From an uncultured Cetobacterium sp. (GTDB lineage: Bacteria; Fusobacteriota; Fusobacteriia; Fusobacteriales; Fusobacteriaceae): a stretch of 64,000 nt of DNA. A model generated the notes under the pieces. The model searched no databases and had not been told where the DNA came from. It saw nothing but the letters and a program-made list of their open reading frames with translations. How positions within the stretch are numbered: the first letter of the stretch is position 1; each line of letters begins with the position of its first letter. The position numbers and the translations under genes are program-made. The stretch covers positions 1 to 64,000 of the forward strand of contig NZ_CAMTIK010000010.1 of the NCBI RefSeq assembly GCF_947072685.1, read 5' to 3'. Positions 3,402 to 62,903 of this stretch are shown in pieces.

Positions 3402-3638
3402 GATGACTCCCCCCAAGAAATCTATATTTAAAAAATTATATTTATTTAAATTAAGATACGGAGATTATTATTGTTTCCTTTTTAAAAATATTATGAAAAA
3501 AATTTTGAACTAAAAAAAAACTTTTCATAAAGACAAAGATAAAAAGTCAGAATACAATAGAATTGTCGAAAAATACACATAAACTTTTTACTTAAAAATG
3601 GGGAATCAAAATAACTTAATTATTTTAGGAGGTATTGT

Positions 3639-6600
3639 ATGAAGAATTTAAATGATACTTATTCTCTACTGAAAAGATTTTTGAAAAGAAAAACAAAAAT
3701 AACAGAAGCTTTATTAGTTGTATTTTTAATAACTGGGGGAGTGGGGTTTGCATACTCACCGGACACATATTCTCCAGATGAGCATCTAGTATTGGAGGCA
3801 TTCAATCCACACGGAATACATCTCGTGAATGGAAATGCGGAAACAGGGGAAACAATAGATTCTACTCATGGGAATTGGCTAGAAAATGTAGGTCTGATAA
3901 AAGGAACTACAAAAGCGGGAACACTTTCAACTCATGGCGGGAAAGTTATAAATACTGGAACAATAGACAGTTCTAATACTGGTGCGGGAATGGTAGCACT
4001 AGGAATAGGAAGAATGGATAATTCTCTAGCTTGGAATAGAGGGATAATAGAAAATACAGGAGACTATGGTATTTTAGCAGTGAATGGTGGAATAGGAATA
4101 AATACAGCCGGAGACTGGGAGACTACTCAAACAACGACTGGGAATCCTCCTACAAAAATTCAAACTACTTTTGGTAAGGGGCATGGAATAAAAAATGATG
4201 GAAACTATGGAATGGCGGCTTATGCTAACCATACTGCAATAGATTATGATAAATATGAGGATAATGATGAAAGAAGACCACAACCACCAAGTCAAAAGCC
4301 GTATTCAGCTCTGTATAACTCTGGATTAGTAGCGAATACTGGTGATTATGGAATGTATGTGGAAGCGGATGGAACAAATGTGGTTGGACCACCACCAACA
4401 TATACTGGAAATAACAATAATAATGTTACACCGATGGCGTTTGGAGTTAATACAGGTGGGATTTTAAATGAAACTCATGTGTATGCAAAAGATGAGCACG
4501 ATGGTGGACCAGGAGGAAGAGAAGGAAGACCAGATGAGGTAAAAAAATATAATACAGATACATATAAAACAGATGGTGGAGTAAAAAATGGTGGAGATAA
4601 TGGAATGGTAGCCAATGCTCAAAACGGTGGAATTGCAGGGCAATTAAACTTTGGATTGGTAGCCAATGGTGGAAATAACGGAATGGTGGCAAACGCTGAG
4701 GTAGGAGACAATGGAAATCCAACTGTAGCTTTTGTAGGAAATTTTGGTGGAACTGGAGAGTTCACTTATAGTAAAACTGATTATGAGTTAGAATATGGAA
4801 ATAATTCCAACAATACAAGACCAGCACCACCACAAGGAAATATAGTTGGAAATTTAAACGAAAGTTATGAGGTTTCAACAGAAAATGGAGTAAAAAATGG
4901 TGGAGACTACGGAATGGTAGCTTCAGCAAAAGGAGAGGGAGCAATAGCTTTAGCAGCCAACGCACCATATATACCTCTATTGGGAATGGTAGGTCAAGTT
5001 AATAATGGTGGGAATGGAGAAGATGAAGGATGTGACGCTCCAGATGTATTAGAGCCTTTAGGTCTACCAAGTATGGGATTAGTAGCCAATGGTGGAAATG
5101 TAGGAATGGGTGCATACGCTGTTGAAGGTGGAGTTGCAATAGCAGTAAACGCAGGATTTGATGCTGATTATAATATAGAATGGAGAGAGGAATATAATAA
5201 TGGTCATAGAAATAGACCGCATGGACCTCTATACTCTGAATTTGCATCTTCAGGAAGTGCAATAGGTGGAGTTCAAAATAGTGGAAACTATGGAATGGTA
5301 GCTCAATCTGATGTGGATAGTGTAGCTGTTGTAGCCAATTTAGGATTGGTAGCCAATGGTGGAGATTATGGAATGGTAGCGGATGGGCAAGAAGCTTGGG
5401 CAATAAATGCTGCTGGAGATATGGATTTATCTCTAGCGTATGGAAATCCTGATGGGAATTTGATACACCGTCCAAGAAATGGAGGACCTGAATCGCCATT
5501 ACCAGACTACGTGGATTTGACATTGTCAACTACAGGTGGAGTTCAAAATGGTGGAAATGTAGGAATGGCAGCATATAATGGTGGAGCAGCAGTGAACCTA
5601 GGATTAGTAGCTAATGGTGGAGATATAGGAATGATAGCTGATGGGACAGCTGTTGTAGGAGATGGAACAGAGAGAAGTTACGCTGTAAATACAGGTAGAG
5701 ATTTAAGTGTAGAGGGATCTATTATAGGAGTACGAGAGGAAGATAGAAATTCACAAAATAACTATGTGCCAGAGGCAAATCTATCACTTTTGGCAGCTGG
5801 CGGAGTAAGAAATGATGGAAACATAGGAATGGCAGCAACCAATGGAGGTCTTGCTGTAAATACAGGACTGGTAGCAAATAATGGTGATGTAGGAATGATA
5901 GCTACTGGAACGGGATCAGATGTTGTAAACCATCAATCTATTTTGGGTGCAATTCTAGCAGCTCATGCTGATGAGGATGGAATTTTAAGGGTTGAAGGAG
6001 AAATACCAGCAGAGTTACTTGAAAATCTAATTCACTTCCCAGATAGAGGATATGATTATACTGGTTCTTTAGCAGTTGGATTAGGAGATTATGGAGTTAG
6101 AAATAACGGTAATTTTGGAATGGCAGCTGAAAATGGAGGAATGGCATTAAATGCTGGTTTAGTTAAAAATACAGGAGACGTAGGTATGGTTGCTTACGAT
6201 AACTCTTTAGCTATAAACTGGGGTAGAGATTTAAGCACTGTGGATTTATTGAATACAATAAATGGTGGAGAGAATATGCCAGGAATTGTAGATGGAATAC
6301 TAAAAGGAATTGTAAATTTACATGGAGGTTACTTAGCTGACTTTGTGGGATCTGGATCAACAGATTTCTTAGGTTGGATAGAAACTTATGGTGGATTAAC
6401 TGATGCTGAAAAAGCGGATATCACAACTAAATATTCGAAAGATATATTGAAAGGTGGAATAGTTAACGACGGTAATATAGGTGCTTATGTGGCTGGAAAT
6501 TCAGCTTTTGTAAATCACGGTATTATTGATCCTCAAGGAACAAATCCAATAACAGATGCTGGAAAAGCAATTCTATCAGCTAATGGGTTAGATCCTAATT

Positions 6601-8573: not shown

Positions 8574-8583
8574 TATAAAAAAG

Positions 8584-8615
8584 AACTGCTTGGTTTAAAA
8601 TCAAGCAGTTTTTTT
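8584..8615 (+). terminator. Terminator of the autotransporter gene
   Basis: AACTGCTTG and CAAGCAGTT form a 9-bp stem followed by a run of T, starting about 10 bases after the stop codon. Confidence 0.92.
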
Positions 8616-8741
8616 ATTAATAATATATAAATAATGAAAAAAATCAAAAAATATAAAAGGAAAAATTATAAAAAACAGAATAGAGTTGAAGATAAAAAAG
8701 ATAAATTAAATAAAAAAATTAAAACTATATGAGGGGGAAAT

Positions 8742-11700
8742 ATGGCAAATTTGAAAAGCTATTACAAAAAGCTTGTTTTATTGTTATTTTTTGTTTTTAA
8801 CTCGGTACTAGTTTTTGCGGTTCCTACAGGACCAACAGTAACAGTTACTAAAACAGATCTTGTAGGAAATATCTTAGCAAAAAACTATGACAACGGCGAT
8901 CAAGTTATCTATAAAATAAGGGTTGACAATCCAGATGTAAATCCATTGAATAGTGTGATGGTATCTGTTCCACTCAGCGGATTGACTTCAAGCTTAGATG
9001 CAGGAGGGACTGGAGCTGTATTTTCAAATTTAGCAGGACAATTTAAAGCTAAAAGTTCTGGAGCAAACGAAGGAACTTTTAATCTGAGTGGAGATTTCTT
9101 AGCAAGTAATGTTACAATCCCTGCTGGAGGATTTGTAGAGTACTATGTGTTGGGAGTTGTAAATCCTGGAGTGAAGGATAATATTGTGGTGACTGCCCAA
9201 GTGAAAGATACAACCGGAAGCACAATTTTAAGTTCAGGAAGCGAGACTCTGACAAGAGTGGCATACAGTTACACTCTAGTTAAGAGTGCAACTACTACAA
9301 CATCAGGATTTTATGAAAAAGGCGGGGCGGTAACATATAAGGTAACTGTAACTAATACAGGTACAAGTAGTATAAAAGGGATGACAATAACAGATATCCA
9401 GCCAGCGGATATAACTGGAGTTACTACAACGGCAACGGCAACAGGAGGAAGCATAATAGGAAGTTTTTCAACCTCTGGAGACCTTATAGCGACAGGAATG
9501 ACAATAACTGCTGGATCAAAAATAGAGTATTTAATGACTGGAACAGTCTTAGCAAATGCATCAGCGGATATAATAAATAAGGCGACCGCAACTGTGAGAA
9601 GTGCAACACTTGATTCCAATACAATCACTTTAAAATTGGCAAATTATCAATATACTTTAGATAAAACTTCAACAAATTCTAAATTTACTCCAAATCAAAA
9701 TTTCACATACAAAATAATAATAACAAACACAAGTCCAACAACAGCAATAACAAAGTTAAAATTGGAAGATACATTGTCAACACTTACAGCACTAGCTGTT
9801 GATGGGACAACTAAAGTTGCTTTTGTACCAGGAACAATTTCGACAACCGCTTCGACAGCAACAGCTGGAAATTCGACTGGAACATTTAACACAACAGGAG
9901 ATTTAACAGCAACTGATATAACTATTTTACCAAGCAGTTCAGTTGAGTTTCAGATAACTGGAAAAGTTAAACCAGATATAGTTGGAGATATAACAAATAT
10001 AGCTAAAATAACAGATAGAAATGGAAATGTAGCTACGGATCCATATGTTATTACTTCAGAAACACCGACATTGAATGTGACTAAAACTCAAAATATATCC
10101 ACATATAAACCAGGAGATCCAATAGTTTATACTATTGGAGTTTCAAATACAGGTCTTGGAATAGCTTCACAGTATGTTGTTGAAGATACTGTACTAAATA
10201 TATTGGGGAATTTAGCGAATTCAGGAGCGACATCAGCTACAGATATAATCTCTGCATATCCATTTAACTCATTTACTATATCGGCAGCTCTAGATGTGGG
10301 ATCCACAAATTCTAAATCCTCTTTAATAGATTTTGGTGGAACAGTATCCAATCAAAATTTATCGGATTTGATCTCGCTTTATCCAAATGAGAAAATAATA
10401 TATACAATAACTGTAAATACCAAAAATACATCAATAAGTAATTTAACAAATAATGTAAATGTAAAAAAAGGTGCTTTAACACCGATAACCAAAACTGTAA
10501 CAACAGCAGCACAAGCACTAGCTAATAATTCATTAGTTTCAATAACAAAAGTTCCAACAGGAACAGAGTATACACCAGGAGATGTAATCACTTACACTAT
10601 TACAGTGAATAATCCAACAAATAACTATATGAACAATGTGGCGATAAAAGATTTGATAACTCAAATTCAAGCCACACAGTTATCAGGATCTGATGGTGTA
10701 GCTTTTGAAAGTTGGGATCTATCTGTATTGAGCCAAACAGGTCTTGGAACTGCTCCGGGGACGACTGGGCTTATAGGACAAACTGGAGATTTGCTATTAA
10801 CAGCAGATATTGGACCAAACGGAACAATAGTATATGAATTAAGAGCTAAGACAAAATTGACGACAGTGGGGACAATTTTAGATAAAGTTGTTTCTGCCAA
10901 TGATAATGTTCCTGAAAATGGAACAGGAGTTAAAATGTCTAACTCGATTTTAGAAATTGCCAAAAATGTGGATTCAACAGAGTATATACCGGGTGGAACT
11001 TTAAGCTATACTGTAGATGTGGATAACCCCGGAGACGGTTATGCAATTGATGTGAAAGTAGAGGATAAGCTATCACAAATTATGACAACTTTAATTGATG
11101 GAACAACAGGTCCAGCGTACACCTCTTGGGTAGTAACAGCAAAAGTGTATGATATAGCAAGTGGATCACCGGTTCTAGTTACTGATCCAAACGATACAAC
11201 ATACCCTGGGTTTACAGGGTCGTTCAATGGAAATCAAAGTTCTAATCCAACATTTTTAGTGACAAATGCAATACTGGGTCCTGATAGAAGAATCAGATAT
11301 ACAATTGATGTTGTTGTGAGCCCAAAAGCTAAAGGAAAGATTAAAAATGAAGTTAGAGTAGATAATAATCTGTTTTCAGATAAAGGATCGATAACGAGGG
11401 TATCCAAAATAAAAATTGAAAAATCAGGGACAAGTAGCTACGTTTCAAAAGATGGGACAATGATTGAGTATAATGTAGTTGTTTCAAATGATGCATCAGC
11501 AGGAGTTGCACTAGGTATAAAAGTGGAAGATTTAATCAGTACAATAAAGGCTGAACTTTTAGGAGATGGAAGTCTAATATCCCCATTTTCAAGCTGGACT
11601 GTCGACGTGCCAACTCTAGTTGGATCGGAGACGAAATCAACAATAACATCACAGCTTTCAAATTTGGATATAAAAGATACAGTGAACATATCTCCAGGTG

Positions 11701-14700
11701 GGTCGATTACCTATAAAATAAAAGCGATATTGAAAAATCCAACTCAGAATCAAGTTGTGTATGGAAATATAAAAAATACGGTGACAGCAGATACTTTGGC
11801 AGCATCTTGGACAGTGGTACCAAAATATCCAAATCTAAATATTATAAAACAAACTACAAGCACAAGTTTTGGAAATGGAAATGAGGTTGATTTTAAGATA
11901 ACTGTTCAAAATATAGGGGATGGATATGCAAATAATGCAACGATATCAGATATTTTAAATGCTACATACTTTGAAAATATTAGAATTACAGGGATATCGA
12001 CTGGGGTAGGAAGCACAACAGGAATTACAGGGACAATAAATACTAATTTAAATAGTACTGTGGATATAGCTCCAGGAGGAACTGTTGTCTATGATATTCT
12101 AGCCAATGTAAAAGCTGATTACAATGGAAGTTTTGTTTCTAATACAGCCTTTGTTACAGATATTCAAAACGGTTTGACAGAGAGCTCGTCAACAACGGTA
12201 GATAGAGATGGAAATGCGGCTGCCAATGGACTGGATATAATAAAAAGAAGTGATACTCTGACATTTACTCCAGGAGGAACGGTAACTTATTTTATAGATG
12301 TAAAAAATAGACAAGGAAAACATGAAGATATAAGAGTGGAGGATTTGATATCTTCAATAAAAGCGACATATGCTAATGATTTGACAGACAATACAATAGA
12401 TCTTTTAAATCAATCGGCATTTACAAGCTGGACAATATATAAAGGTGTAAATAATCCAAACCCCGCAACAATATTTGCAGCATCGGGAACAACAAATTTA
12501 AATGATACTATTACTGTTGGTGCAAACTCAACTGTAACATATAAAATTGTGGGAACTGTGAGTGATAGGGTTGTGAGCAAAACATTGACAAATGTTGTCT
12601 CAGTTTATAACTCTACCAATAATATAATAGGGACTAGTTCAATTCAGCACAATATAATACCACCTGGTGGAGGAATTACAAGAGTTGTGGATAAGGGTAG
12701 ATATATTCCGGGAGTTGACAGCTTGACATATACAATAACTGTTAATTCTACAGGGTCTGGGTATCAAAATAATATAAATATCAACGAGTTGATTAAATCA
12801 TTGTCAGTTGATTTGATTGATGGAACAACAGGAAACCCATTCCAAGATCCAGTGACAGGAGCATACAATTTTACAGTTACTGCAGTTAATACAGGTTCAA
12901 CTAATGGAACAGAAGAGGATTTTACAGCAGGACCAGCAAACAATACAAATTTAGTAGGCGTAGTAGATGTTAAGTCTGGAGAAAAACTACAGTATATTAT
13001 AACAGGACCGGTTAGAAAGGATGCAATAGGAACTATAGACAACAATGGATTGATAACCGAGCCATATAGATATAATCTTCAGTCAACAAAATCTGTAAGC
13101 CCGTCAAGATATCAACCTGGGAAAGAGATGATATACACAATAACTATAAATAATAACAGTACTGGAAATGCTAAAGATATAGTTGTAGAGGATGATTTAA
13201 GCTCAATATCAGTATTGGATTCAACAGGAGCGACGATAACTCCAGCACTGACAAATATAACTATAGATCTAGTAAATTCAACTGCTACTGGATATAAAGC
13301 TAGTTTAGGAAATCCAGTTATAACATCGGGAAAACTATATGCGACACCGGATATACCAATAGGTGGGAAAATCGTATATAAGATTAAGGCTACAGTTAAT
13401 GAGAAGGCTATCGGATATATGGTAAATACTTCATATATAGATACTGATGCTGTTTCAAATGAGGTAGGACCAGCAGCAGACAATCTGAATTTGACAAAAG
13501 AGATAACAAAATACTATGCACTCGATGGTACAACTGTCATAACAGGAGGATATCAACCAGGTGGGTACATTGAATATAAAATTATGGCTAAAAATCCAGG
13601 GTTTGGAATATTAAATGATGGAATTTTTAAAGATGATCTATTTAATATTACAACAAACTATTCTGATGGGACTATTGGAAAAGCTTTTGACAGTTGGGTA
13701 ATTACAAAAACAAGTTCAATAGGTGTGGCAACAAACTCCGATATAAGTAATTCGATAGTGTTAAACACATCTACAACTACGGGGATAGATACAACTGTAG
13801 ATATAGCACCATTAGGTGAGTTTAGCTATGTAATAAAAGCAAAAATAAATGAAAAAGCTGTAGGAAGCATAAAAAATATTGTGGATGTAAACAGAACTCA
13901 AAAAAATGTATCCACATCTATGAAGTCATCTACGATAACTCAAACAAAGCAAGCATACAATCCAGATGGAAGTGTAAAAAATACATTCTTGCCGGGGGAA
14001 ACAGTAGTTTACAAAATAAAAGTACAAAATACAGGTTCAGGAACAAGCTATTTGCAAACATATCAAGATTTCGTTGCAAATATAACAGCGGAAGTTGCTG
14101 AAACTCCAGGATCTGTAGAAACTCCAATAGAAAGTGTATTTGAAAGTTATTCTACCACATACACAACTTCAGGCGGAAATGTGACGACAGTAGGAACATA
14201 TAACGATACAATAAATTTAGATAAGGTAACGATAGCTTCTGGTGGATGGATAGAGTTTGTTATAACAGGAGTGCTAAAGAAAACTATTATAGGAGACTTT
14301 ACAAATACTTCAAAATATGCAAGTGATACAAAAACTAAAAAGTTAACAAAGGTACCTACAACCCTTGCGGTATCTAAAAAAATAACTAAATTAGCTGGAA
14401 AAACATTTGTAGTTGGAGATACATATAAGCCGGGAGATACCATAGAATATAAAATAACAATAGAGAATACAGGGAATAGTTTCTATGATGATCTTTCAAT
14501 TGTGGATAATTTAAACAGTATTGTAACAAGCTTGACAGGGGATACAACAGGAAAAGCTTTAGAAAATATAGCTATAACATCGAGTGTAGAAAATACACTG
14601 GGGAATCCTGTTCTAACAAATATAAAATCTAATTCAGGAGATGGAACAAGCAGTATTGTTCAAGAGGCTGATTTGGCACCTAAAGATAGAATAACTTATA

Positions 14701-24800: not shown

Positions 24801-25639
24801 GTTTTATGTATGAAAAAGGTGATGTAGAAATATACGAAGGAGACGTGAGAAGAAATACTCTTAGCTCTGGAGTGAGATATGAGTCTGAAAAGTTCTATTC
24901 TAGAAATAGAATTGAATACGGAAAAGATTCAGGGGCAAGGGATACAAAAAGTTTAGGGTTTATAAATAATATGAAATGGAATCCAGCACCAGAGTATACT
25001 TTATTTGCAGAAGCTAACTATGTAAGTGTAAAAGGGGATTCGTTTACCTTAAAAAGATCTAATACCAATGAGTATTTGAATAGAAGCTTTGACACAAACG
25101 ATAAATATTATGAATTGGGATTAGGTTTAGGTTATAGACCAATATATAATGATAGATTGAATTTAATCTCAAGATGGAACTATATCTATGACACGTCTGG
25201 AACAGGATTGGTAGATTCTTCTGCAGCGATGCAGTTTAAAGCACATATATTCTCTCTCGAGGCTATCTATGATTTGACACAAAAATTGAGTGTAGCGGGT
25301 AAATATGCGATAAGAAAAGATGAGGTGAGATTAGTTTCTGGTGGAAGTTGGTTTGATAACACTATTAACTTATATGCACTGAGAGCAACGTATGAAGTTA
25401 TTTATCGTTGGGATCTATTTGCAGAGTATCATATATTAGAAAATAGAGGAGATGATGAGGTTAAACAGGGAGTGATAGCAGGAATATACAGAGATATCAA
25501 TGAAAATTTACAACTGGGAGTAGGATATAACTTCAGTAAATTTACAGATGATCTGAGTGATTTAAGATATAAAAGTGGGGGTGAGGAGTTAGACTATAAA
25601 TCTGAGGGTTGGTTTATAAACTTAATCGGTAAATTCTGA
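21896..25639 (+). CDS. Outer-membrane beta-barrel partner of the giant DUF11 protein
   Basis: 1247 residues with a signal peptide (1 to about 25, ending INIAVG). Residues about 30-330 look like two or three beta-rich, Ig-like periplasmic domains. Residues about 330-590 carry a conserved module (YYLSERDI, then GSDYTINELSGRI at about 548-560) that is clearly shared with the protein at 29822-34795. Residues about 595-1247 alternate hydrophobic and polar in strand-length blocks rich in Tyr and end in INLIGKF, a typical outer-membrane barrel end. It starts inside the stop of the giant gene (TAATG), with a GGGGAGGGG site just upstream, so the two are made together. A role in exporting or anchoring the giant protein is inferred from coupling and from the fused homologue. 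It is not a standard TonB-dependent receptor: no plug motif is visible. Confidence 0.8.
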   Translation: MKRFISNKGMLILIMGSLAINIAVGQTLESATKIQPPNAFDEYDIIDSYITEDLGEGWENSKNNMRGVEFQKLELDSNLQELPTFPMSEKNIYKGRVFLENRSGVIYSVVDPIAVEPKLNVKTSDYATINFSGEIEEPIFFYTYTNYEKNIKSYELYVYKELDRARINPIAVVTGENLGKDKPIIWDGKLEKEDRLESEENLFYILRVYDENGSFDETKEKVIDLKRFKTLSEKDKEDVTEDIKNKIYGTSSLQLQNIPVSGSKVRFFGRDLKGNSLVKIDNQKVDVDSKGDFIFETISDEPKKIYKLNVESGDTSVEYPIEVETQPNYEYLVGLADFYYGKNKISGSSSILENDPSFEPSYYNTGRLAAYYKAIKGKYKITAQADTWGKEIKNMFSDFHERDPNTIFRRIDNQYFPFNYGDESELYYDVETQGKAYLRVDWDKSQVLWGNYETGLDSGIYNEYNRSLYGARAEYNSLDTNTFGDSLYHIEGFASNPDTSYKRDKFLGSGGSIYYLSERDIVIGSAKLIVEITDKKTGRVTNRVPLTEGSDYTINELSGRIILSNPLSQTYFNKGSTDIIKDSPSGSANTYLVADYEYYSPMDDISNLSAGGRGQAWLTNNAAIGGTYVKENRKGDTTDYELASGDIVLKKSNGTYLKAEYSESKGNQLTQDSNWFSYNAGYDFIQQPIILDNAKGRAYYIEGALKPEDYFKKLNPNDTVKFWYSKKDKNFSTASENSGLEKEEYGIRAEHKANEKTKVYAEATKYTEKDFDDYGDSEGLQEENSVLLGVSYDYTDRLNFGLEGEYVKNKEDESQLITYNDNDLDTGEAFLLGARVGYEFSERLEGYTKLQSSVWRDKGYGTNNLITVGANMAVTEKLELGGAVSTGNQGDAVEAKLGYKYSPDYEIYTGYSYENEDDLTRDFTLGQKLAYNEKVDLYQEASLMKNYSEKGLLQGYGVDYKYRENLTLSFMYEKGDVEIYEGDVRRNTLSSGVRYESEKFYSRNRIEYGKDSGARDTKSLGFINNMKWNPAPEYTLFAEANYVSVKGDSFTLKRSNTNEYLNRSFDTNDKYYELGLGLGYRPIYNDRLNLISRWNYIYDTSGTGLVDSSAAMQFKAHIFSLEAIYDLTQKLSVAGKYAIRKDEVRLVSGGSWFDNTINLYALRATYEVIYRWDLFAEYHILENRGDDEVKQGVIAGIYRDINENLQLGVGYNFSKFTDDLSDLRYKSGGEELDYKSEGWFINLIGKF

Positions 25640-25652
25640 TTGTGAAAATAAT

Positions 25653-25690
25653 AATTATTCCCATTTAATTTAAATGGGAATAATTTTTTT
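25653..25690 (+). terminator. Terminator after the giant protein/barrel operon
   Basis: AATTATTCCCATTT and AAATGGGAATAATT form a 14-bp perfect stem followed by a T-run. Confidence 0.93.
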
Positions 25691-25757
25691 GTTTAAACAA
25701 GGAAACAATAATTTTTATCAGTAAAAGATATTAAGCAGAATATAATGGAGGGGGTAT

Positions 25758-26504
25758 ATGAATAAGAAGATATTGCCATTGTTATTAGTTTTAATTTTAG
25801 GATGTGAGAAAGGAAGTTATAAAAATCAAAACTCACCGCCAATTGATGGCAGGCAGACAAAAGTGGAAAAGAATATGAGTTATCAAATCACAAATTTATC
25901 TCAACGATTGAATCAAATCTATGCGAATGGAGAGAGGTTTAATTATCAATTCATGGGGTCAAATGAGGCCACAACAAAAACATTTATTACAGGTAAAGAG
26001 TTAGTAATTCCCATTTTATACGAGACAATAGAAAACAATTTAGTTTTGAGTATCGCAATTTTAATCAACTTACAGACAAACGAAAAACAAATCTTAGTGG
26101 ACAATCTTATAATCGATTACAATCAATTTAAAAAAATAATAGAAAAATCAGCACTTTGGATAGGTAAAACAGAAAGTTTTGACAGTAAATTTATTTTGGA
26201 AAAACCTTTAGAAGAGACAGTTGAAGTTTCATTTCCACAAAATAAAACGAGTAAAAAATTTGCTGCATTTATGATTTTTGACGGGGAGAGAAAAGGCAAA
26301 GACCTTGTTTTGAGAGAGGAAGGGAACAGTGAATTTCAAACAGTAGTATCGTTTAAAAGAAATAAAATAATATATTTAAACGACAAACTAAACGAGGAGT
26401 TTATATTGGGAGCAATTTCAGAAAACTCTAAGAGTATGATTGACGAGATAGATTCTTTAAATAAAGCGTATGAAGATTTAGATTTATTATTAAAAAAAAA
26501 TTAG
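25758..26504 (+). CDS. Lipoprotein of unknown function
   Basis: 248 residues. The signal peptide ends in the lipobox LILGC with Cys at about residue 16, so the mature protein is lipid-anchored, facing the periplasm or the surface. The mature part has a beta-rich region (about 55-150) and a charged, helical C-terminus ending in a run of Lys. I recognise no family. It is the first gene of a transcription unit with two DUF11-like proteins (12 bases to the next gene) and has a GGAGGGGG site. By position it may be an assembly or anchoring factor of the surface system; this is inference only. Confidence 0.75.
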   Translation: MNKKILPLLLVLILGCEKGSYKNQNSPPIDGRQTKVEKNMSYQITNLSQRLNQIYANGERFNYQFMGSNEATTKTFITGKELVIPILYETIENNLVLSIAILINLQTNEKQILVDNLIIDYNQFKKIIEKSALWIGKTESFDSKFILEKPLEETVEVSFPQNKTSKKFAAFMIFDGERKGKDLVLREEGNSEFQTVVSFKRNKIIYLNDKLNEEFILGAISENSKSMIDEIDSLNKAYEDLDLLLKKN

Positions 26505-26516
26505 GAGGAGTAGATT

Positions 26517-26957
26517 ATGAAGAAAATATTACTGATGTTTATATTGATTGGTTCTGTAGTTCTAGGAGAGGTTAAAACCCAGTTGAAGAGCATGAAAATT
26601 TCAAAATCTGGAGATGGAAAAATAGAGAGAGTTGAAGCCAAAAATGTTTCGCCTGGGGATATTTTAGAATATACCTTTATGATAGATAATGAAGAGCAGG
26701 AGGTTATAAAAAATCTTAATCCAACAATACCAGTGCCTAGTGGAACATCATTGATTCCAGATACAGGCAAACCAAGTAATTATTTAGTGAGTGTAAACGG
26801 AAGAGATTTTTATAAGTACCCCATAGAAGTTGATGGAAAACCTGTGCCATTATCTGATTATAAAAGTGTGGGTTGGAATGTAGAGGAACTTAAACCGGGG
26901 GAAAAATTAGAGTTTAAAGTAGAGGTTAAATTAAATGGAGGTGAGGGGGCAAATTAG
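26517..26957 (+). CDS. Small secreted DUF11-like single-domain protein
   Basis: 146 residues with a signal peptide (1 to about 17, ending VVLG). The mature protein is essentially one repeat-like unit: the entry NVSPGDILEYTFMIDNEEQE, then a prediction of a beta-sandwich, ending in a stretch (LKPGEKLEFKVEVKLNG) like the tail of a DUF11 repeat. It lies 12 bases behind the lipoprotein gene, with an AGGAGG site, and about 75 bases before the 903-residue gene. A single-domain version beside multi-repeat proteins could be a cap, tip or periplasmic partner; this is inferred. Confidence 0.75.
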   Translation: MKKILLMFILIGSVVLGEVKTQLKSMKISKSGDGKIERVEAKNVSPGDILEYTFMIDNEEQEVIKNLNPTIPVPSGTSLIPDTGKPSNYLVSVNGRDFYKYPIEVDGKPVPLSDYKSVGWNVEELKPGEKLEFKVEVKLNGGEGAN

Positions 26958-27033
26958 ATTTTAGAGTAAAGGATTGAATAAAAATCTGGAGGTGAGTTTT
27001 TAATAGAGAATAATACTTAAAAGGAGATGAAAT

Positions 27034-29745
27034 ATGGAGAAGAAAAAAATTAAAAGTAAGATAAAATCCCTTTTGTTCACTTCAGCAGTTTTAGGAGCGT
27101 TTACATTCAATACAGCTGCTGGAGCGAGTAGCATACCATTTGCTAATACCGATATTGGAAACCAAGCTACTTTGACCTATCAAACTCTTGGTGGTCAAGC
27201 AAAGATGTTGCAGTCAAATATTGTTATAACAACAATTAACCAAGCTTATGCAGTACAGTTAGAGCCAAATAGAGAGGTTCAAGCCGTAGCAGGAAAAGAT
27301 GTATATTTTAACCATACATTGACAAACTATGGTAATGGAGTAGATTCTTTCACGATAAAACATGACTACGGACCTACTAGAGATGTAGTTATGTATTTGG
27401 ATGTCAATAACAATGCGGTTCTAGATCCGGGAGAAAATCCTTTAGAAATCAACGCACAAGGTGAGGCAAATATACCAGAGGTAGACCCGTGGAAAGGTGT
27501 AGGAATTATAGTTAAGGTTAACACAAAATCTGGTGATACAGGAATAATATCAGGAAAGTTAACAGCAACGAGTAAAGGTGACAGTAGCAAAACAGATGAA
27601 GCAAGTGAAAAAATTACAATCATAACAACAGCAAATTTAAATGTATATAAAGCACTGAGTTCTTCTCAAGGGGCATCTGATATAGCTAGAGAAGTTACAA
27701 TTTATTTAAAAATGTACAATGAATCTCCAACTGAAGCAAAAGTTGCTGAAGTAACAGACAGTTTAAACACTAAGTTTAACTATATAGATAACAGTGCTAA
27801 ATGGCAAGATTTTGGATCGAACACTTCAGTGGCAATTGCAGATGATAATGGAGCTGTAAATGGAGTTGAATATAATGTGGTTAAAAGAGCTTCTGAAAGT
27901 GGAAGCGATAAAATAACATTAAAATTACCAAATGTATCTGGAAATACGACGATAGCATCAACAGGTGGAGTTCTATCATTTAAAGTGATGGTAAAAGAGG
28001 GAGAAGCTGTGGCAACTCTTCCTAATGAAGCGACATATAAATTTAAAACGTTTGATGCTACGGGAGAGTATATAGAAGGAACTTCAAACAAAGTAAATTA
28101 CTCTATTTTAAAGTATGTTAGAGCACAGTTTTCTGGAGATACAATACTGTCTGGTCAAGCTGGAGAAGAGTTAAGATTTGTGAATGTATTTAAAAACATA
28201 GCAAATGCAGCGGAAGTATATAACTTATCAATATCAGATAAGTTTTTCCCAGTGGGAACTACTTTTAGATTAGCTTTACAGACACCAGGAGGACAAGAGA
28301 GACCAGTTTTAGATAATAATGGAGATTTAATATATGATACAGGAGTGGTGGGTATAAACGAAACTGTAAATGTTGTACTATATGCTCAACTACCAACAAA
28401 TATAACCAATATTCAATCAAACTATACAGTTAAAAAAATAGCTACAAGTGTGCATACACCAACTTATAATGTAAATGCTTTAGATACTTTAAATACACTT
28501 AGAGCAGCAACTGTAGATTTGACAAATAATCAGTCTTTGAGTGAAAATAAAAATGCACCGGGACAAGGAGTAGGACCTGAGCAATCACCAGTTACTCAAA
28601 TTGCTTTGAGACCAGGTGAAAGTGGAAACTTTATACTTCATGTAAATAATACAAGTTCATATATAACTGATACATACAGATTGGATGTAAGCACAAGAGC
28701 AGATTTTTCGGATCAAACAATACCAGCAGGAGTAAGTGTTAAATTTATATCTGGTGGAGGAGCTGAAGTTACATCAACATCTCCTATCCTACCAAATAAT
28801 AGTGAGAGAATAAATGTAAAGGTTGATATAGCCCTTAATACGACAGCGAAAACAGTACCGCTGTATTTTAGAGTGACATCTGTAATAACAGGATCAAAAG
28901 ATATTAAGTATGATTCAATTACAGTAAGTGCTGTAAGAGATATATCTATAACACCTAACAATACAGGTTCAACTTATGCAGGAGGACAAGTTATATACAC
29001 GCATACAGTTAGAAATAATGGAAATGTATTGGAAGGGGATGGAAGAGCCAGTGAGGTAAATATTGTAGCAAGAGAAGCTTACTCTCAATGGGCAACAGAA
29101 ATATTTATGGACACAAATGGAAATGGAATATTTGATATAGGTATTGATACTCCATTTAGAGATTTCGCAACAATAGGTGGATTAGTTCCAGGGCAAGAGG
29201 TAAAAATATTCGCTAGAGTTTCATCTGAAGTTGGAACACCGGCAGGACAAGTAAACACTACAACAATTAGCCCAGAAGTGACAATAGGAACATATCCGCT
29301 TGAGGCAAGTGTAACAGTTGCCACAGACAAAACAACAATTTTGGCTGAGGATTTAACTATAACTAAAAAACAAAAATTAGAACTAACAGGTAAATATACA
29401 TCTGAACCACAAAAAACTGATCCAGGTAAAAATATATTCTATCGAATAGATGTTAAAAATGATGGACAAGTGGATGCTAAAAATGTGGTTATAAGAGATA
29501 CGGTTCCATACTATACAACACAAATATCAGGAGATACGTTAGGAGAGGGAATAGTAAATAAAGCATCCTATGTAATAACAAGTGCACAGGGAACACAGGG
29601 AGCGTTTAAAGCGGCAGAAGTACAACCAGGAAATGGAAATAGAGGTGACATAGTAGCACAGGTTGGAGTTTTAAGACCGGGCGAAACAGCAACATTATAT
29701 TTCCAAGTTAAAGTAGATAGTATTCCAACTGTACCAGCACAATAA
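27034..29745 (+). CDS. Secreted DUF11-repeat surface protein (903 residues)
   Basis: The signal peptide has a long charged start (MEKKKIKSKIKS) and ends near TAAGA at about residue 30. The mature N-terminus (GNQATLTYQTLGG, about 42-54) is a pattern seen at the start of many DUF11 surface proteins. Several diverged repeats follow: about 85-190, 200-350, 355-480, 510-630, 640-770 and 785-900, the last with the classical PGKNIFYRIDVKNDGQVDAKN motif. Calcium-loop-like segments (DVNNNAVLDPGENP and DTNGNGIFDIG) sit in the first and fifth units. No barrel or sorting signal is present, so it is probably held on the surface by partners. It is the third gene of the lipoprotein unit and is followed by a terminator. 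It may be an S-layer-like subunit; this is not shown by the sequence. Confidence 0.78.
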   Translation: MEKKKIKSKIKSLLFTSAVLGAFTFNTAAGASSIPFANTDIGNQATLTYQTLGGQAKMLQSNIVITTINQAYAVQLEPNREVQAVAGKDVYFNHTLTNYGNGVDSFTIKHDYGPTRDVVMYLDVNNNAVLDPGENPLEINAQGEANIPEVDPWKGVGIIVKVNTKSGDTGIISGKLTATSKGDSSKTDEASEKITIITTANLNVYKALSSSQGASDIAREVTIYLKMYNESPTEAKVAEVTDSLNTKFNYIDNSAKWQDFGSNTSVAIADDNGAVNGVEYNVVKRASESGSDKITLKLPNVSGNTTIASTGGVLSFKVMVKEGEAVATLPNEATYKFKTFDATGEYIEGTSNKVNYSILKYVRAQFSGDTILSGQAGEELRFVNVFKNIANAAEVYNLSISDKFFPVGTTFRLALQTPGGQERPVLDNNGDLIYDTGVVGINETVNVVLYAQLPTNITNIQSNYTVKKIATSVHTPTYNVNALDTLNTLRAATVDLTNNQSLSENKNAPGQGVGPEQSPVTQIALRPGESGNFILHVNNTSSYITDTYRLDVSTRADFSDQTIPAGVSVKFISGGGAEVTSTSPILPNNSERINVKVDIALNTTAKTVPLYFRVTSVITGSKDIKYDSITVSAVRDISITPNNTGSTYAGGQVIYTHTVRNNGNVLEGDGRASEVNIVAREAYSQWATEIFMDTNGNGIFDIGIDTPFRDFATIGGLVPGQEVKIFARVSSEVGTPAGQVNTTTISPEVTIGTYPLEASVTVATDKTTILAEDLTITKKQKLELTGKYTSEPQKTDPGKNIFYRIDVKNDGQVDAKNVVIRDTVPYYTTQISGDTLGEGIVNKASYVITSAQGTQGAFKAAEVQPGNGNRGDIVAQVGVLRPGETATLYFQVKVDSIPTVPAQ

Positions 29746-29746
29746 A

Positions 29747-29776
29747 AGAGAGAGGGGTTTAAACCCTCTCTTTATA
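29747..29776 (+). terminator. Terminator after the 903-residue protein gene
   Basis: AGAGAGAGGG (29747-29756) pairs with CCCTCTCTTT (29764-29773), with a short loop and a weak T-rich end. Confidence 0.65.
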
Positions 29777-29821
29777 GAATTTTAAAAATTAGTAAAAGTT
29801 AAGAATAAGAGGAGGGGCAAT

Positions 29822-32800
29822 ATGAAAAAAGTAAAATTTTTTATTTTTATATTGCTTCTTTTTTTATTTCATAAAAATATATACTGTGAAGTAGTTAGGA
29901 ATATAGCTTATTTAAAATCAGAAAATATAGAAAAATCAAGTAATGAAGTTATTACATATAGATTGAATAGTAAAATAAAATTTGTAGAACATGGTGAGAA
30001 CAAAAAAGAACAATATTTAGATGAAAAAAACAAAATATATGTGATAGGAGAGCTTGATTTAACTCAAACAGGAAAAGAGATAATATATTTTAAAAAAAAT
30101 ATGTATTCATCGTTTTATCCAGAAAATATACGGTTTTTTATACAGGAGGGAGAATCGGAATATGTAGAGCTAGAAAAAGAGTCTATAAAATCAAATAGAA
30201 CAAAAGATATAGAGTTGGATGGTGGTAAAAAATATAAGGTCATTTCGGTAGGAGAAAATATAAAAAATACACCAAATATAGAGAGTGGGAATTTTTCTTT
30301 AGAGGCTTTTAATAAAGAGAAAAGTATTGGAGAGATAATAAATAAACTTATTATAGAAAATAAGTTGACATTTATAGCTGACAAAGACAATGAAGAAACT
30401 CAGTATTTGGATTTTAAAAATCAAATAAAGACAACAGCAGACATAAGTTTTATAAATTTATTAAAAGAAAAAGCGATATTTAAAATGATTTTAGGAAAAG
30501 ATATGATGGTAGAAACATTTGTTGGAACAATGGGGGAAGAAAAATTTTTATTTCATTGGAACAATATTGACAAGTGTTTTTATTCTGATGAGGTTGAGAT
30601 ATACGGGGATACTATTCTAGATGTTTTAGGAACAGGGATTAAAAAAAATGAGAACATTGAATCGGAAGATTTTACTTTATCGATGTTAGTGGGAGATATG
30701 AGTTACGGAAGTATAAAAAATAAAATTGTTATGGAGTCTCAAAATAAAATATTATTAGAGAAAAAATCAGTACAAAAGATTGCTCGCGTTGGGGATATAG
30801 TAAAATACGAGCTCACTGTAAAAACAACAAGAGATGAGATGTTTAGAAAAATAATATTGAAAGATACTCTCCCTAAAGGCTTTGAGTTGTTAGAAAAAAG
30901 TATAAAAGTTTCAAAAGGAGATATAGGGGAGATAAAATATTTTGAAAAGAATATGTTTTCTTTAGATATAGATTTTTTATCTGAAAAATTTACTGAGAAA
31001 GAGTTATCAATTGAGTATATGATAAGAGTAAATGTGAATACAAAATTGGGTAAAAATATAAATAGAGCTATAGCATACGCAGACAATGAAATAAATAGAG
31101 TGATAGAATCGAATTTAGCTTCAGCAGAGATAGAAATAGATGGAGAGAATTTTTCAGAAAAAGGAATTATTATAGGTAGAGTTTTTATAGATATTGATGA
31201 AGATAAAAGATATGATTCTAAAAAAGATATTTCAATTCCAGGGGTTAAAGTATTTTTAGAAAATGGAGATTTTGCAATCACAGATTCTGATGGAAAATAT
31301 AGTATATATGGAGAAGACGCAACAACACACATAGCAAAAGTTGATAGGGGAAGTGTACCTTTAAAGTTAAGAGGTGTAAAATTAACAAATAGACATTCGG
31401 AAAATGGAGAGTCTCAATTTATTGATTTAAAAAAATCACAACTTAACAAAGGTAATTTTGCATACATAATTTTAGGAGATAAGGATAAAACAATTTCTAT
31501 AATTCAAGAAAGAAAAAAAATTCTAGAGGAGAGAGTAAATGAAATTTTTTATCAAGTGGATAGCAAGGAGTTAAATTTTAAGCAAATATCTAAACCGGAA
31601 AGAAAAGAGCTCGGTGAAAATGGTATTATAGATAATCATGAAATAGTAGATTTCGTAAAAGGTAGTGTAAATATAGAAAATAAAGAAAAATTAGAAAAGA
31701 ATAAAGAAAATGTAGAAATAGATTTAAGAAAAAAAATGAAAATTTTGAATACAGATGAATTGTCAGAGAAGATTGAGAACTTAAATAATGAGTTGGATAT
31801 TATAAATATACAGAATGGAGACGTTGTTTTAAATCACATGACATTTCAAATAAAGAGTCCATCTGGTGGAAGAATTGAACTTTTTATAAATGATAAAATG
31901 GTTGGAGTCGAGCACATAGGAATAAGAGCGACATCAGCTATAAATTCTCTATTTTTTTTAGAGTATGCTGCAGTGATGTTAGAGACAGGAAAAAATAAGG
32001 TAAGAGCAAGTTATTATGATCAATTTGGAGTAGAAAGAAATAGGATAGAAAAAGTGGTATTAGTTCGTGGGGAGTTAGAAAGAATTGTATTTGAAATAAA
32101 AAAAAGTGAAAGTACAAATGAAGTTGTGAAATTTATATTGAAGGGAACAGATAGTAATGGAATAGAGATAGAACACGACTTGAATGCAAGGGTAGTGTTA
32201 ATGGATAAAGATAAAGGGGAATGGATAAATGGTGAAAATGGAAAAAATGCGGAAGAAATAAGAGTGAAAATACCTAAAGATAGTTATAAAGAGGTGCTGT
32301 TTAGACCAAAACCGGGGAAAAAAAAGGTGGCATTTAAAGTAGCAGTTGAAGGTTTAGAAGAGGAGTTTGTATTTGAAATAAAAGGAGAAGCAATCCCAAC
32401 ATTTGTAAATGGAATAATAGAAGGAAGAGTTAATTTTAAAGGTAAAAATGAAGAGAATTTCTTTTTTGAAAAAGATATAAGTAATATTTTCAACGATAAA
32501 CTTTATTACAGAGGAGCAGTATTTGCAACAGGAAATTTAATGGAAGATTATTTTTTAACTTTGACTTATGATAGCGCCAAAGAAAAAGAAAAATTTTTCT
32601 CATATAAAGACCCAGAGGATTATTATCCGATATATGGAGATAATTCAATTAAAGGACATACTGGTGAATCTAGAGAGGATTTATATATAAAAATAGAAAA
32701 GGACAAGTCATACGTTATGTATGGGGATTTAAAAACTTCGGAACTATTTGATAACAGGACTAGGCTAAATCAGTATTCAAGAGCTTTAACAGGGTTTTCT

Positions 32801-34795
32801 TCAGAACTTTCAAAAGAAAAAATAAATATAAATACGTTCTATGCTAAGGCCAATAGTACAAAAGTAGTTGATGAGCTTCAAGGAAGGGGAGTATCAGGAC
32901 CATACACACTTTCAAATAGAGATATTATAGATGGAAGTGAAGAGATAAAATTAGTCACTTACAACCGAGGTACAAAAATTGTAATCTCAGAATTGAGCAT
33001 GGTCAATGGTCAAGATTATACGATTGACTATGACTTGGGGAGAATATATTTCACAGAACCCATAATGGGGATGGATTTGGAGTTTAATCCAGTATTTATA
33101 AGAGTTAACTACGAAGTGGAAGAACAAAGTGGAGATGCAAAACCAGTCTATGGAGTTGTTGGTAGATATAATATAAATAAAAATGTCTATTTAGGTGGAA
33201 GTTATGTGAAGGATGACGATAAACTAGAAAAATATGAGATGCAGGGAGTGGCACTTCTATACGAAAATGAAGACCATTTAGCTATATTGGAGGTATCTAA
33301 AACAGATGATTTTGAAGAGGGAATCGGTGAAGCTAAATCTTTTTATTACAAATATGAAAAAGATAAAAGTAAAATAAAAGTTATCTATGAAAAATCAGAC
33401 GACAGCTATTACAATCCTGATGCAGATGTTCAAAGTGGCATAGATGGGCTTGAGATAGAGGGGGAATACAGATTAAAAAATAACAATCTATTAAAATTCA
33501 AAAGTGAATTTTTGAAAGAAAATTTGGAAGCTGGAAGCTATGAAAAAAAGGATGTGTATTTAGGAGTTGAGTTTGAAAAAAAATCTAATTTTGTGTATGA
33601 GGTCGGAGCAAAACATTATTTTAAAAGTGATACCTTAGACCAAGGAGAGATAAATACCATAGGAGCAAAAATTGCATGGGAGCCTGTAGAATATCCTGGG
33701 TTTACTACGTTTTTAGAGTATGAACAAGATGTGTTATTGAGCGATAAAAAAAGAGTTGCGGCGGGGATAGATTATGAGGTGAATGATGGAACAACTCTTT
33801 ATTTCAGGCAGGAGTTGATATCGGAACTTTCGGACGAATACTACCTAGACCCAGAGGATGACAGCAACAGAACATTGGTAGGAGTTAAAACTAAAAAATA
33901 TTTAGGAAGTGAGGTTTTTACGGAATATAGAGAAGTAAATGAGGATGAAGGGGTAAAACCGGAGGTTGGAACAGGTTTGAAAAGAGAGTTTGAAATAACT
34001 GAAAATCTTAGTCTATATGGAACTTTTGAAAGGACAGACCCAGTGTCATACACCAAAACTGAGGGAGATGAAAAAAGAAAGGCAGAAAACTCGGTAACTT
34101 TTGGATATGATTATTTAATAGATGATACAAGTAAAACTAGAGGAGATTTTGAATTTGAATTTGGAGAGACCAGTTCATTTTTAAATAAAATGGGATATGG
34201 AAAAAAAATAAACGAAAGTCTCTCTTTTATAGGTAAAAATAGATATTATACAGAGGGAGATTTGGAGCAAGAGGACAGATTAATTTTAGGACTGGCATAT
34301 AGAGATGCAGAAAATGACAGGTATAACTCTTTGAATAAATATGAGTTGAACTACTCTAAAAATATAATAGATGACAACTATAAACAGCTTACAAATTTAG
34401 TTAGAAGCTCCCATAACTATCAATTCAATAGATGTGTAGACGGAACACTCACATTGGCTATAAAAAATGTTGAAACAACATACGAAGAGATAAGTAGCGA
34501 CTATACAGCTTATCTGATTGCGGGGACGTTGAGTTATGATGTATATAAAAATTGGACCACGGGAATAAGTTTAGCGAGTACATTTGATAATAAGCAAAAC
34601 ATTGATTACGGGGTTGGAGTTGAAGTGGGCTATGTTTTTGAATCAAATTTGTGGCTATCGTTAGGATATAATTTTGTTGGGTTTAAAGATAAGGATTTTG
34701 ATCCATCTGGAGAACTGAATCAAGGAGTTTTTGTCAGATTTAGAATGAATGTTGGAGATGTGTTTGACAATATGAAAATGAAAAAAGTTAACTGA
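29822..34795 (+). CDS. Fused DUF11/SdrD-like/outer-membrane barrel protein (1657 residues)
   Basis: Signal peptide 1 to about 22 (ending NIYC, not a lipobox of the usual form). A beta-rich N-terminal region is followed by one DUF11-like domain (about 310-440, with ILKDTLPKGFELL), an SdrD-like domain at about 449-540 (GRVFIDIDEDKRYDSKKD, then DSDGKYSIYG), a charged coiled stretch (about 555-655), an Ig-like region (about 670-860), then the conserved module (YTLSNRDI, and GQDYTIDYDLGRI near 1065) and a C-terminal barrel to the end. The module and barrel are homologous to the 1247-residue protein, while the DUF11-SdrD part matches the C-terminal end of the giant protein. So one polypeptide holds what the giant operon splits between two genes. 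It has its own GGAGG site and terminator. Its role in export or anchoring is inferred. Confidence 0.8.
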   Translation: MKKVKFFIFILLLFLFHKNIYCEVVRNIAYLKSENIEKSSNEVITYRLNSKIKFVEHGENKKEQYLDEKNKIYVIGELDLTQTGKEIIYFKKNMYSSFYPENIRFFIQEGESEYVELEKESIKSNRTKDIELDGGKKYKVISVGENIKNTPNIESGNFSLEAFNKEKSIGEIINKLIIENKLTFIADKDNEETQYLDFKNQIKTTADISFINLLKEKAIFKMILGKDMMVETFVGTMGEEKFLFHWNNIDKCFYSDEVEIYGDTILDVLGTGIKKNENIESEDFTLSMLVGDMSYGSIKNKIVMESQNKILLEKKSVQKIARVGDIVKYELTVKTTRDEMFRKIILKDTLPKGFELLEKSIKVSKGDIGEIKYFEKNMFSLDIDFLSEKFTEKELSIEYMIRVNVNTKLGKNINRAIAYADNEINRVIESNLASAEIEIDGENFSEKGIIIGRVFIDIDEDKRYDSKKDISIPGVKVFLENGDFAITDSDGKYSIYGEDATTHIAKVDRGSVPLKLRGVKLTNRHSENGESQFIDLKKSQLNKGNFAYIILGDKDKTISIIQERKKILEERVNEIFYQVDSKELNFKQISKPERKELGENGIIDNHEIVDFVKGSVNIENKEKLEKNKENVEIDLRKKMKILNTDELSEKIENLNNELDIINIQNGDVVLNHMTFQIKSPSGGRIELFINDKMVGVEHIGIRATSAINSLFFLEYAAVMLETGKNKVRASYYDQFGVERNRIEKVVLVRGELERIVFEIKKSESTNEVVKFILKGTDSNGIEIEHDLNARVVLMDKDKGEWINGENGKNAEEIRVKIPKDSYKEVLFRPKPGKKKVAFKVAVEGLEEEFVFEIKGEAIPTFVNGIIEGRVNFKGKNEENFFFEKDISNIFNDKLYYRGAVFATGNLMEDYFLTLTYDSAKEKEKFFSYKDPEDYYPIYGDNSIKGHTGESREDLYIKIEKDKSYVMYGDLKTSELFDNRTRLNQYSRALTGFSSELSKEKININTFYAKANSTKVVDELQGRGVSGPYTLSNRDIIDGSEEIKLVTYNRGTKIVISELSMVNGQDYTIDYDLGRIYFTEPIMGMDLEFNPVFIRVNYEVEEQSGDAKPVYGVVGRYNINKNVYLGGSYVKDDDKLEKYEMQGVALLYENEDHLAILEVSKTDDFEEGIGEAKSFYYKYEKDKSKIKVIYEKSDDSYYNPDADVQSGIDGLEIEGEYRLKNNNLLKFKSEFLKENLEAGSYEKKDVYLGVEFEKKSNFVYEVGAKHYFKSDTLDQGEINTIGAKIAWEPVEYPGFTTFLEYEQDVLLSDKKRVAAGIDYEVNDGTTLYFRQELISELSDEYYLDPEDDSNRTLVGVKTKKYLGSEVFTEYREVNEDEGVKPEVGTGLKREFEITENLSLYGTFERTDPVSYTKTEGDEKRKAENSVTFGYDYLIDDTSKTRGDFEFEFGETSSFLNKMGYGKKINESLSFIGKNRYYTEGDLEQEDRLILGLAYRDAENDRYNSLNKYELNYSKNIIDDNYKQLTNLVRSSHNYQFNRCVDGTLTLAIKNVETTYEEISSDYTAYLIAGTLSYDVYKNWTTGISLASTFDNKQNIDYGVGVEVGYVFESNLWLSLGYNFVGFKDKDFDPSGELNQGVFVRFRMNVGDVFDNMKMKKVN

Positions 34796-34820
34796 TAAAA
34801 TTATGTCAGTTAACTTTTTT
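34781..34820. terminator. Terminator, likely bidirectional
   Basis: AAAAAAGTTAACTGA pairs with TCAGTTAACTTTTTT. The stem includes the stop of the 1657-residue gene and has T-runs on both strands, so it also serves the HutD gene coming from the other side. Confidence 0.9.
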
Positions 34821-53780: not shown

Positions 53781-53882
53781 ATTTGAAAGAAGGAAAGATA
53801 TAATAATAAAGAATAGTAATAAATGATAATGGTAGAGGAAAATATTATTATCATTCTTTTGAAACAGAATAAGGAGGCAGAC

Positions 53883-54950: not shown

Positions 54951-54974
54951 TTAAAATTAATCGGAGGAAAGATT

Positions 54975-55853: not shown

Positions 55854-55900
55854 AATACTAATTAAAAATAATAATTTAAAGGAACAGAGAAATTTATTGT

Positions 55901-55937
55901 GTAAAATAATTCAAGAAAATATTTAATATTATTTTAC
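55901..55937 (+). repeat. 10-bp perfect inverted repeat ahead of gadC
   Basis: GTAAAATAAT (55901-55910) and ATTATTTTAC (55928-55937) with a 17-base spacer, ending directly before the GAGGAGGG site of gadC. It could be an operator or a weak hairpin that exposes or hides the ribosome binding site. Confidence 0.7.
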
Positions 55938-55951
55938 GAGGAGGGTTTATT

Positions 55952-57550: not shown

Positions 57551-57584
57551 AAGCAGTTATAAAAGTAGTATTTAGGAGGCTAAA

Positions 57585-58505: not shown

Positions 58506-58513
58506 AAAGATTG

Positions 58514-58541
58514 GAGGTCTCTTTTAAGAGACCTCTTTTAT
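58514..58541 (+). terminator. Hairpin between glsA and amt
   Basis: GAGGTCTC and GAGACCTC pair over 8 bp, followed by TTTTA. It lies just past the glsA stop; partial read-through to amt is possible. Confidence 0.8.
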
Positions 58542-58559
58542 AAATAGGGAGGTGGAGAA

Positions 58560-62889: not shown

Positions 62890-62903
62890 GGGGGGTAAAT
62901 AAA

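Follow-up and report, generated by a model that had tools for sequence, protein, structure and literature searches.

The 31-kb block of seven exported genes near the start of the window, the 64,000-nucleotide stretch of uncultured Cetobacterium DNA analysed here, is a neighbourhood and not a machine. Three unrelated surface-protein units lie side by side in it: an autotransporter, a giant DUF11 fibre with its own barrel (unit A), and a four-gene operon (unit B). The parts of unit B carry donor and acceptor ends and split isopeptide residues, which suggest how they join. Unit B is probably a self-assembling surface fibre together with its outer-membrane anchor. The broader reading, in which split DUF11 isopeptide domains ligate connector to connector and connector to very large barrel as a sortase-free covalent assembly line in diderms of at least five phyla, is offered tentatively, as a possibility that we would not yet call probable.

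The host genome, of 2.15 Mb, belongs to Cetobacterium in the broad sense (Fusobacteriaceae). The seven open reading frames lie end to end on the plus strand, each with a signal-peptide-like start (Table 1), as an earlier note on this DNA had read them. Its three barrel proteins were also recovered, P0001 by the Pfam Autotransporter domain and P0003 and P0007 by a homologous C-terminal barrel module, as were its four DUF11 proteins of unequal unit number (28 in P0002, one each in P0005 and P0007, several in P0006). Of the first 35 kb, the genes take up about 88%, where half had been stated. Three strong terminator-like hairpins divide the block into three transcription units; of the four or more proposed earlier, a fourth may arise only through a weaker hairpin between P0006 and P0007. 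Pfam searches covering the block and the genes at 39849-63974 returned no chaperone, usher, sortase, curli or type 9 secretion domain, in agreement with the note; neither a PapD-like chaperone nor a PF00577 usher was matched in the block or the scanned window genes, and no Por/Spr protein or C-terminal sorting domain was matched by Pfam or NCBIfam in the window genes scanned. A DUF11 profile search of the whole genome gave matches only in P0002, P0006 and P0007, and none outside the block; the single DUF11 domain of P0005 was recognized by TIGR01451. Elsewhere the window holds a cluster of peptidyl-arginine/agmatine-deiminase-type, carbon-nitrogen hydrolase, amino-acid permease, glutaminase and ammonium transporter genes (53823-59777) and three genes like anaerobic sulfite reductase, with 4Fe-4S, NAD-binding and NIR_SIR domains (61004-63974).

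Table 1. Features of the three surface-protein units, in window coordinates
Feature	Position	Strand	Remark
P0001, type Va autotransporter, 1644 aa	3639-8573	+	PF03797
Terminator-like hairpin with T-run, closes autotransporter unit	8584-8616	+	sequence read directly
Unit A, fibre and barrel	8742-25639	+	
P0002, unit A fibre, 4384 aa	8742-21896	+	28 DUF11 (CLIPPER-type) repeats
P0003, unit A outer-membrane barrel, 1247 aa	21896-25639	+	start codon overlaps P0002 stop
Terminator-like hairpin, closes unit A	25653-25691	+	sequence read directly
Unit B, four genes (lipoprotein, 146-aa DUF11 protein, 903-aa connector, barrel)	25758-34795	+	
P0004, gene 1, predicted lipoprotein, 248 aa	25758-26504	+	
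P0005, gene 2, 146 aa, one DUF11 domain without last hairpin	26517-26957	+	
P0006, gene 3, 903-aa connector, about six Ig-like domains	27034-29745	+	
P0006 residues 38-70, donor hairpin with Asn43	27145-27243	+	
P0006 residues 200-362, complete internal CLIPPER-type domain, cis triad K206/D242/N331	27631-28119	+	
P0006 residues 772-894, hairpin-less acceptor DUF11 domain, K778 and D822	29347-29715	+	
Hairpin between P0006 and P0007, possible weak terminator	29747-29774	+	sequence read directly
P0007 (barrelB), gene 4, outer-membrane barrel protein, 1657 aa	29822-34795	+	
P0007 residues 23-46, N-terminal donor hairpin with Asn27	29888-29959	+	
P0007 residues 308-440, complete CLIPPER-type DUF11 domain, cis triad K314/D348/N414	30743-31141	+	
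P0007 residues 445-515, SdrD_B/CarboxypepD-like domain	31154-31366	+	homologous order in L133
P0007 residues 861-1657, C-terminal barrel region	32402-34792	+	
Terminator-like hairpin, closes unit B	34781-34820	+	sequence read directly

The trio of 146-aa protein, connector and barrel is a widespread operon with no accepted name, and the barrel has no Pfam or NCBIfam model. A genome scan with an alignment of the barrel confirmed 533 relatives of P0007 (barrelB), and 79 loci were taken for analysis. Upstream sequence of 3 kb or more was available at 70 loci, a set dominated by Acinetobacter and Psychrobacter. At 66 of these a P0005-family gene precedes barrelB, usually separated from it by a single P0006-like gene of about 600-1,000 aa, which is also the gene order of the window. 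With barrels thinned to clusters below 68% identity and each cluster counted once, the operon was found in 24 of 27. The loci span Fusobacteriota, Pseudomonadota, Desulfuromonadales, Nitrospirota and Balneolota, at least five phyla, and plasmid records add the barrel set of Deinococcus ficus and two cyanobacteria with a different gene order. P0006 is homologous over its full length to the middle genes of other phyla, at 27-32% identity and up to E 1e-101. Among 100 related genomes, six carry both P0005 and barrelB, one and two carry a single one of them, and 91 carry neither (Fisher p 1.6e-7); the three with a single gene all have it at a contig end. Named carriers among these relatives are uncultured Cetobacterium, Cetobacterium sp. 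UBA6069 and Cetobacterium sp. 2A. The fixed company that the earlier note had suggested for the barrel thus holds for the 146-aa protein and the connector; the lipoprotein P0004 opens the operon in Cetobacterium relatives alone. Openly licensed literature yielded no description of the operon. In several Psychrobacter loci (L156, L163, L164, L207 and others), exported proteins of 500-1,050 aa are encoded upstream of the 146-aa gene; they have a diverged acceptor-like C-terminal domain and a common YFNTKYGTT tail.

The two DUF11 proteins ahead of the barrel end in an incomplete domain. Their C-terminal profile matches stop early, covering positions 8-86 of 114 in P0005 and 7-84 in P0006, compared with 6-112 for the internal domain of P0007, and in connectors and 146-aa proteins that last matched strand is typically followed by only a few more residues. 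The missing hairpin, of the form I-x-N-x-A-x-x-x-Y ... S-N-x-V, is carried by P0006 and the barrel at their mature N-termini. A profile HMM of the connector N-terminus matched 45 of 76 barrel N-termini against 6 of 643 others, those six all being connector-like; on P0007 itself its score was weak (E 0.35). Inside complete DUF11 proteins, the best match of this HMM is the terminal hairpin, just past the last strand kept by the truncated domains. A hairpin HMM built from the 28 repeats of P0002, with 21 positions, was too short and weak to discriminate, and it was the reverse test with the connector HMM that worked. An AlphaFold2 model of P0006 (pLDDT 83) has about six Ig-like domains, of which Pfam scores one. 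In this model the strands 327-338 and 347-359 of the internal domain are absent from the C-terminal domain, and a free hairpin (40-50/56-68) stands at the N-terminus. Foldseek searches with the connector model returned generic strings of Ig domains only.

In a joining test, each connector C-terminus was joined to short N-terminal windows and scored on the profile of the complete domain. The median gain was 17.5 bits with the connector's own barrel, 20.2 bits with connectors and 6.9 bits with other genes (p about 5e-28). For P0007 alone, the best-window gain was 8.9 bits, within the range of control window proteins. The P0005 family gave a smaller gain, probably since its own DUF11 domain falls in the windows. 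An earlier and cruder version with long N-terminal pieces showed no gain. In a census of the loci, both ends were present in 61 connectors. As donors, 35 barrels were scored, and no barrel was scored as an acceptor. The same clusters also encode large proteins with an acceptor end only; such partners reach 1,700-2,500 aa. One 1,254-aa protein from such a cluster in Deinococcus ficus (L123:12297-16061), annotated as a right-handed beta-helix protein, has an acceptor-type DUF11 domain at its end and is a candidate tip adhesin.

The residues of the isopeptide bond are split in the same manner. DUF11 (PF01345) domains of fibrillar adhesins, called CLIPPER, carry a Lys-Asp-Asn triad, and the crystal structure 9IFR has a bond between Lys715 and Asn806 with Asp748 nearby (PMC12617251). 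Unit B shares the domain family and the triad. In CLIPPER the triad lies within one domain, whereas in unit B a Lys and an Asp stand at the C-terminus of one chain and an Asn at the N-terminus of another. Single domains with the whole triad do occur, at residues 200-362 of P0006 and 308-440 of P0007. The C-terminal copy in P0006 has no Asn in the same domain, and the Asn-bearing hairpin is found at connector and barrel N-termini. No more than five columns are invariant across 68 connectors (mean identity 33%), namely N331, K778, Y803, D822 and F890, so that both residues of the truncated domain are kept in 68 of 68; the internal triad is kept in 63 (K206), 66 (D242) and 68 (N331) of the 68. 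K206 and K778 are the only columns with Lys in more than 80% of connectors. The donor Asn43 occurs in 65 of the 68 connectors, and the donor Asn27 in 95% of 83 full-length barrels in an unselected alignment and in 82 of 82 in a motif-guided one. K314, D348 and N414 of P0007 are each present in 94% of the 83 barrels. Lys and Asp on one chain with Asn on another is the arrangement to be expected if the bond forms between chains, and a joint sealed by an isopeptide bond in trans, independently of sortase, is plausible on these alignments.

Such a joint is not universal, as a variant branch of connectors (in G036, G020, G034 and part of G003) has Thr, Ile or Ala in place of Asn43; the acceptor Lys and Asp are kept in these connectors, and the donor Asn in their barrels. 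The chains might instead tile non-covalently by donor strand complementation, as in chaperone-usher pili, with Lys and Asp in another structural role. The variant connectors, which hold on to both residues, would fit such tiling, as would the known existence of DUF11 domains without the bond (PMC12617251). We nevertheless consider it unlikely, in view of K778 and D822 being two of only five invariant residues and of a donor Asn that is near-invariant in barrels, variant branch included. In the P0005 family, Leu or Ile occupies the isopeptide Asp position, so P0005 should take up the hairpin without bonding to it, and may serve as a reversible cap or as a periplasmic chaperone for donor hairpins.

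The assembly that we favour, a surface fibre built by donated hairpins, would proceed as follows. The terminal DUF11 Ig domain of every fibre-forming chain is short of its last beta-hairpin, which the following chain, a further P0006 or P0007, would supply from its mature N-terminus. Insertion of the hairpin would complete the domain and join the chains head to tail, and from the profile matches it is likely that this donation locks connector to connector and connector to barrel. P0007 would fix the base of the fibre in the outer membrane, where its barrel may also be the export route. In the canonical branch, to which the window belongs, the acceptor Lys and Asp and the donor Asn would be placed as in CLIPPER, giving a covalent joint that seals itself with no need of sortase. 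In other phyla the large acceptor-only proteins could form the fibre tip.

The DUF11 chains could also be a periplasmic scaffold linking the barrel to peptidoglycan, and not a fibre on the surface. A P0006 rod of about six Ig domains, as inferred from the model, could roughly span the periplasm, and in some other phyla an OmpA-family gene lies downstream of the barrel (PF00691 at L133; an OmpA-family annotation also occurs on an Acinetobacter plasmid). This placement is improbable in our judgement: acceptor partners that reach 1,700-2,500 aa, and one partner with an annotated right-handed beta-helix region, fit surface adhesins better, and DUF11 stalks have been described in cell-surface proteins (PMC12617251).

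Closure in cis is less probable again. Here the hairpin of P0006 would complete its own C-terminal domain, giving a ring or a folded-back rod, and that of the barrel would serve only the barrel's own fold. P0006 does contain both halves of the triad (N43 and K778/D822), and the connector's own hairpin gives the largest joining gain (20.2 bits). Against this, about six Ig domains separate the two ends of P0006, the barrels carry the same hairpin with its conserved Asn, are never scored as acceptors and so need a partner in trans, and a trans partner is likewise needed by the acceptor-only proteins of the same clusters.

At the base of the proposed fibre, P0007 is an unusually large barrel. An AlphaFold2 model of residues 645-1657, built from 33 sequences (mean pLDDT 78.6, pTM 0.62), is almost all strand in the barrel region, with, by our count, about 31 consecutive long strands from about residue 1090 and a few more before. 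If these strands close into one barrel, P0007 would be close in size to SprA, to our knowledge the largest single-chain barrel. Foldseek searches with the barrel model gave generic outer-membrane barrels only, at a TM-score of about 0.2, SprA being a weak generic match. Neither P0007 nor P0003 received a name from Pfam or NCBIfam, PDB sequence searches with both gave nothing useful, and no POTRA or haemolysin-activator domain of two-partner (type Vb) secretion was matched by Pfam in either.

In chaperone-usher pili of the PapD/FimD class, the N-terminal extension of the next subunit completes an incomplete C-terminal Ig domain, and the base sits at an outer-membrane barrel. Unit B has the same three elements, the incomplete Ig domain and the N-terminal donor extension being recognized by sequence and profile. 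It differs in that no PapD-type chaperone or usher is matched, the barrel itself bears a donor, and a whole hairpin is missing instead of one strand. The closest precedent for the proposed joint is the archaeal thread Saci_0406, whose subunits join head to tail by donor strand complementation with a proposed intermolecular isopeptide bond and no known sortase, and in which a partner subunit without an acceptor site is the proposed cap (PMC9715654). The thread has no outer-membrane barrel, and its pilin fold is unrelated by sequence. Unlike the bond suggested for unit B, that of the thread runs from the N-terminal amino group of a chain to an Asn two subunits along (PMC9715654).

The architecture of unit B (DUF11 repeats, SdrD_B, Ig, barrel) recurs in unit A, a separate relative that has 28 repeats and is split into two genes. 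P0002 consists of 28 DUF11 repeats, counted from an anchor motif and alignment, then an SdrD_B-like domain and a short OmpA-like tail seen by eye. Most repeats contain the CLIPPER triad within one domain: the 28 aligned rows have Lys in 22, Asp in 26 and Asn in 26, and a looser pattern finds all three residues in 25 repeats, some of the Asn calls being uncertain. The P0002 stop and the P0003 start overlap as TAATG, with a GGGGAGGGGAG stretch upstream, so joint translation is probable. In relatives G004 and G009, a single frame of about 5,260 aa encodes fibre and barrel together, the junction being flanked by the P0002 SdrD_B-like domain on one side and P0003 residue 94 on the other, and G020 has an open frame of 5,303 aa with both. 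Vibrio campbellii has a P0003 homologue (2e-152) in the same two-gene form. Barrels homologous to that of unit A are also found on rhizobial and marine alphaproteobacterial plasmids (H45-H62), often annotated as TonB-dependent receptors or hypothetical proteins; the receptor labels are probably misnomers. From these sequences we read unit A as a long cross-linked stalk on its own barrel, presumably exported through P0003. By its repeat architecture alone, P0002 resembles the giant bead-on-string DUF11 fibres GhlA of Litorilinea and GhpA of Aureispira. GhlA is a single protein of 6,596 aa with 49 DUF11 domains, described without a signal peptide (PMC13319060); P0002, by comparison, has a signal peptide and a dedicated barrel gene. 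As in type V secretion, a long N-terminal fibre precedes a C-terminal barrel, fused or in two genes, but the barrels of units A and B are much larger, have no Autotransporter or POTRA/FhaC match, and belong to no named family. A protein of about 1,900 aa with DUF11 repeats and a unit-A-type barrel (L118, G009:C1:132001-142000) occurs in most genomes of the genus and was not found in the window's own. At L105 and L113, in G007 and G006, the genes of unit A are adjoined by another exported gene set, among whose products are proteins of about 160-190 aa with the motif KIVEPLRFR and one of 1.4-2.1 kaa.

The autotransporter P0001 is a stand-alone classical type Va protein, unrelated to the DUF11 units. 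Its residues 1370-1624 are an Autotransporter domain (PF03797, 3.9e-43), the C-terminal 12-strand domain of that type, and in G031 and G006 its homologues are distant from both DUF11 units. Divergent from it is P0008 (470 aa, 2004-3416, minus strand), a probable regulator with no Pfam or NCBIfam match. A 34% homologue adjoins a unit-A-type barrel gene in G005 (L119_9), from which P0008 may regulate surface genes.

The earlier note had taken the block for one self-contained machine and had itself named independent gene occurrence in related genomes as decisive. Such independence was found between the units. In G031 one contig carries all three, the autotransporter at about 522 kb, unit A at about 619 kb and unit B at about 856 kb; in G007 they are on different contigs, and among 100 related genomes most of the same genus have unit A without unit B. 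Only a small ORF separates the unit A barrel from HutD in G007 and G010, and in the window unit B fills this gap. Unit B of G007 and G010 lies at another site common to both, which G011 matches on one side. A 159-aa gene beside it (L089:5180-5659, L219) has an orthologue in the window's own genome, at G000:C1:43476 in a different context, which indicates that the unit B site has been rearranged; the second flanking gene has no clear orthologue in that genome, and a search there for a former site of unit B located none. Unit A was also considered as a part of unit B in other phyla and rejected, as no unit-A-type barrel gene adjoined barrelB in the other-phyla loci examined. P0003 and P0007 are, from their shared C-terminal barrel module (BLASTP 1e-12), evidently paralogous barrels. 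That the whole block is one export and anchoring machine is very improbable and largely refuted by this independent occurrence: its adjacency on one strand, its paralogous barrels and a genome overlap of units A and B slightly above chance (Fisher p 0.004 in the 100 relatives, a statistic that ignores kinship) stand against units that lie far apart or alone in relatives, the lack of a unit-A-type barrel beside barrelB in other-phyla loci, and the terminator-like hairpins between units.

If the split-domain reading of unit B is true, many environmental and commensal diderms would make a self-locking surface fibre without chaperone-usher, sortase or type 9 machinery. It would provide an assembly rule for a large class of genes annotated as "DUF11 domain-containing" or misnamed "TonB-dependent receptor", and a function for a barrel family that has no curated model. 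The joints would also offer protein-ligation pairs from nature, counterparts of the engineered tag/catcher systems.
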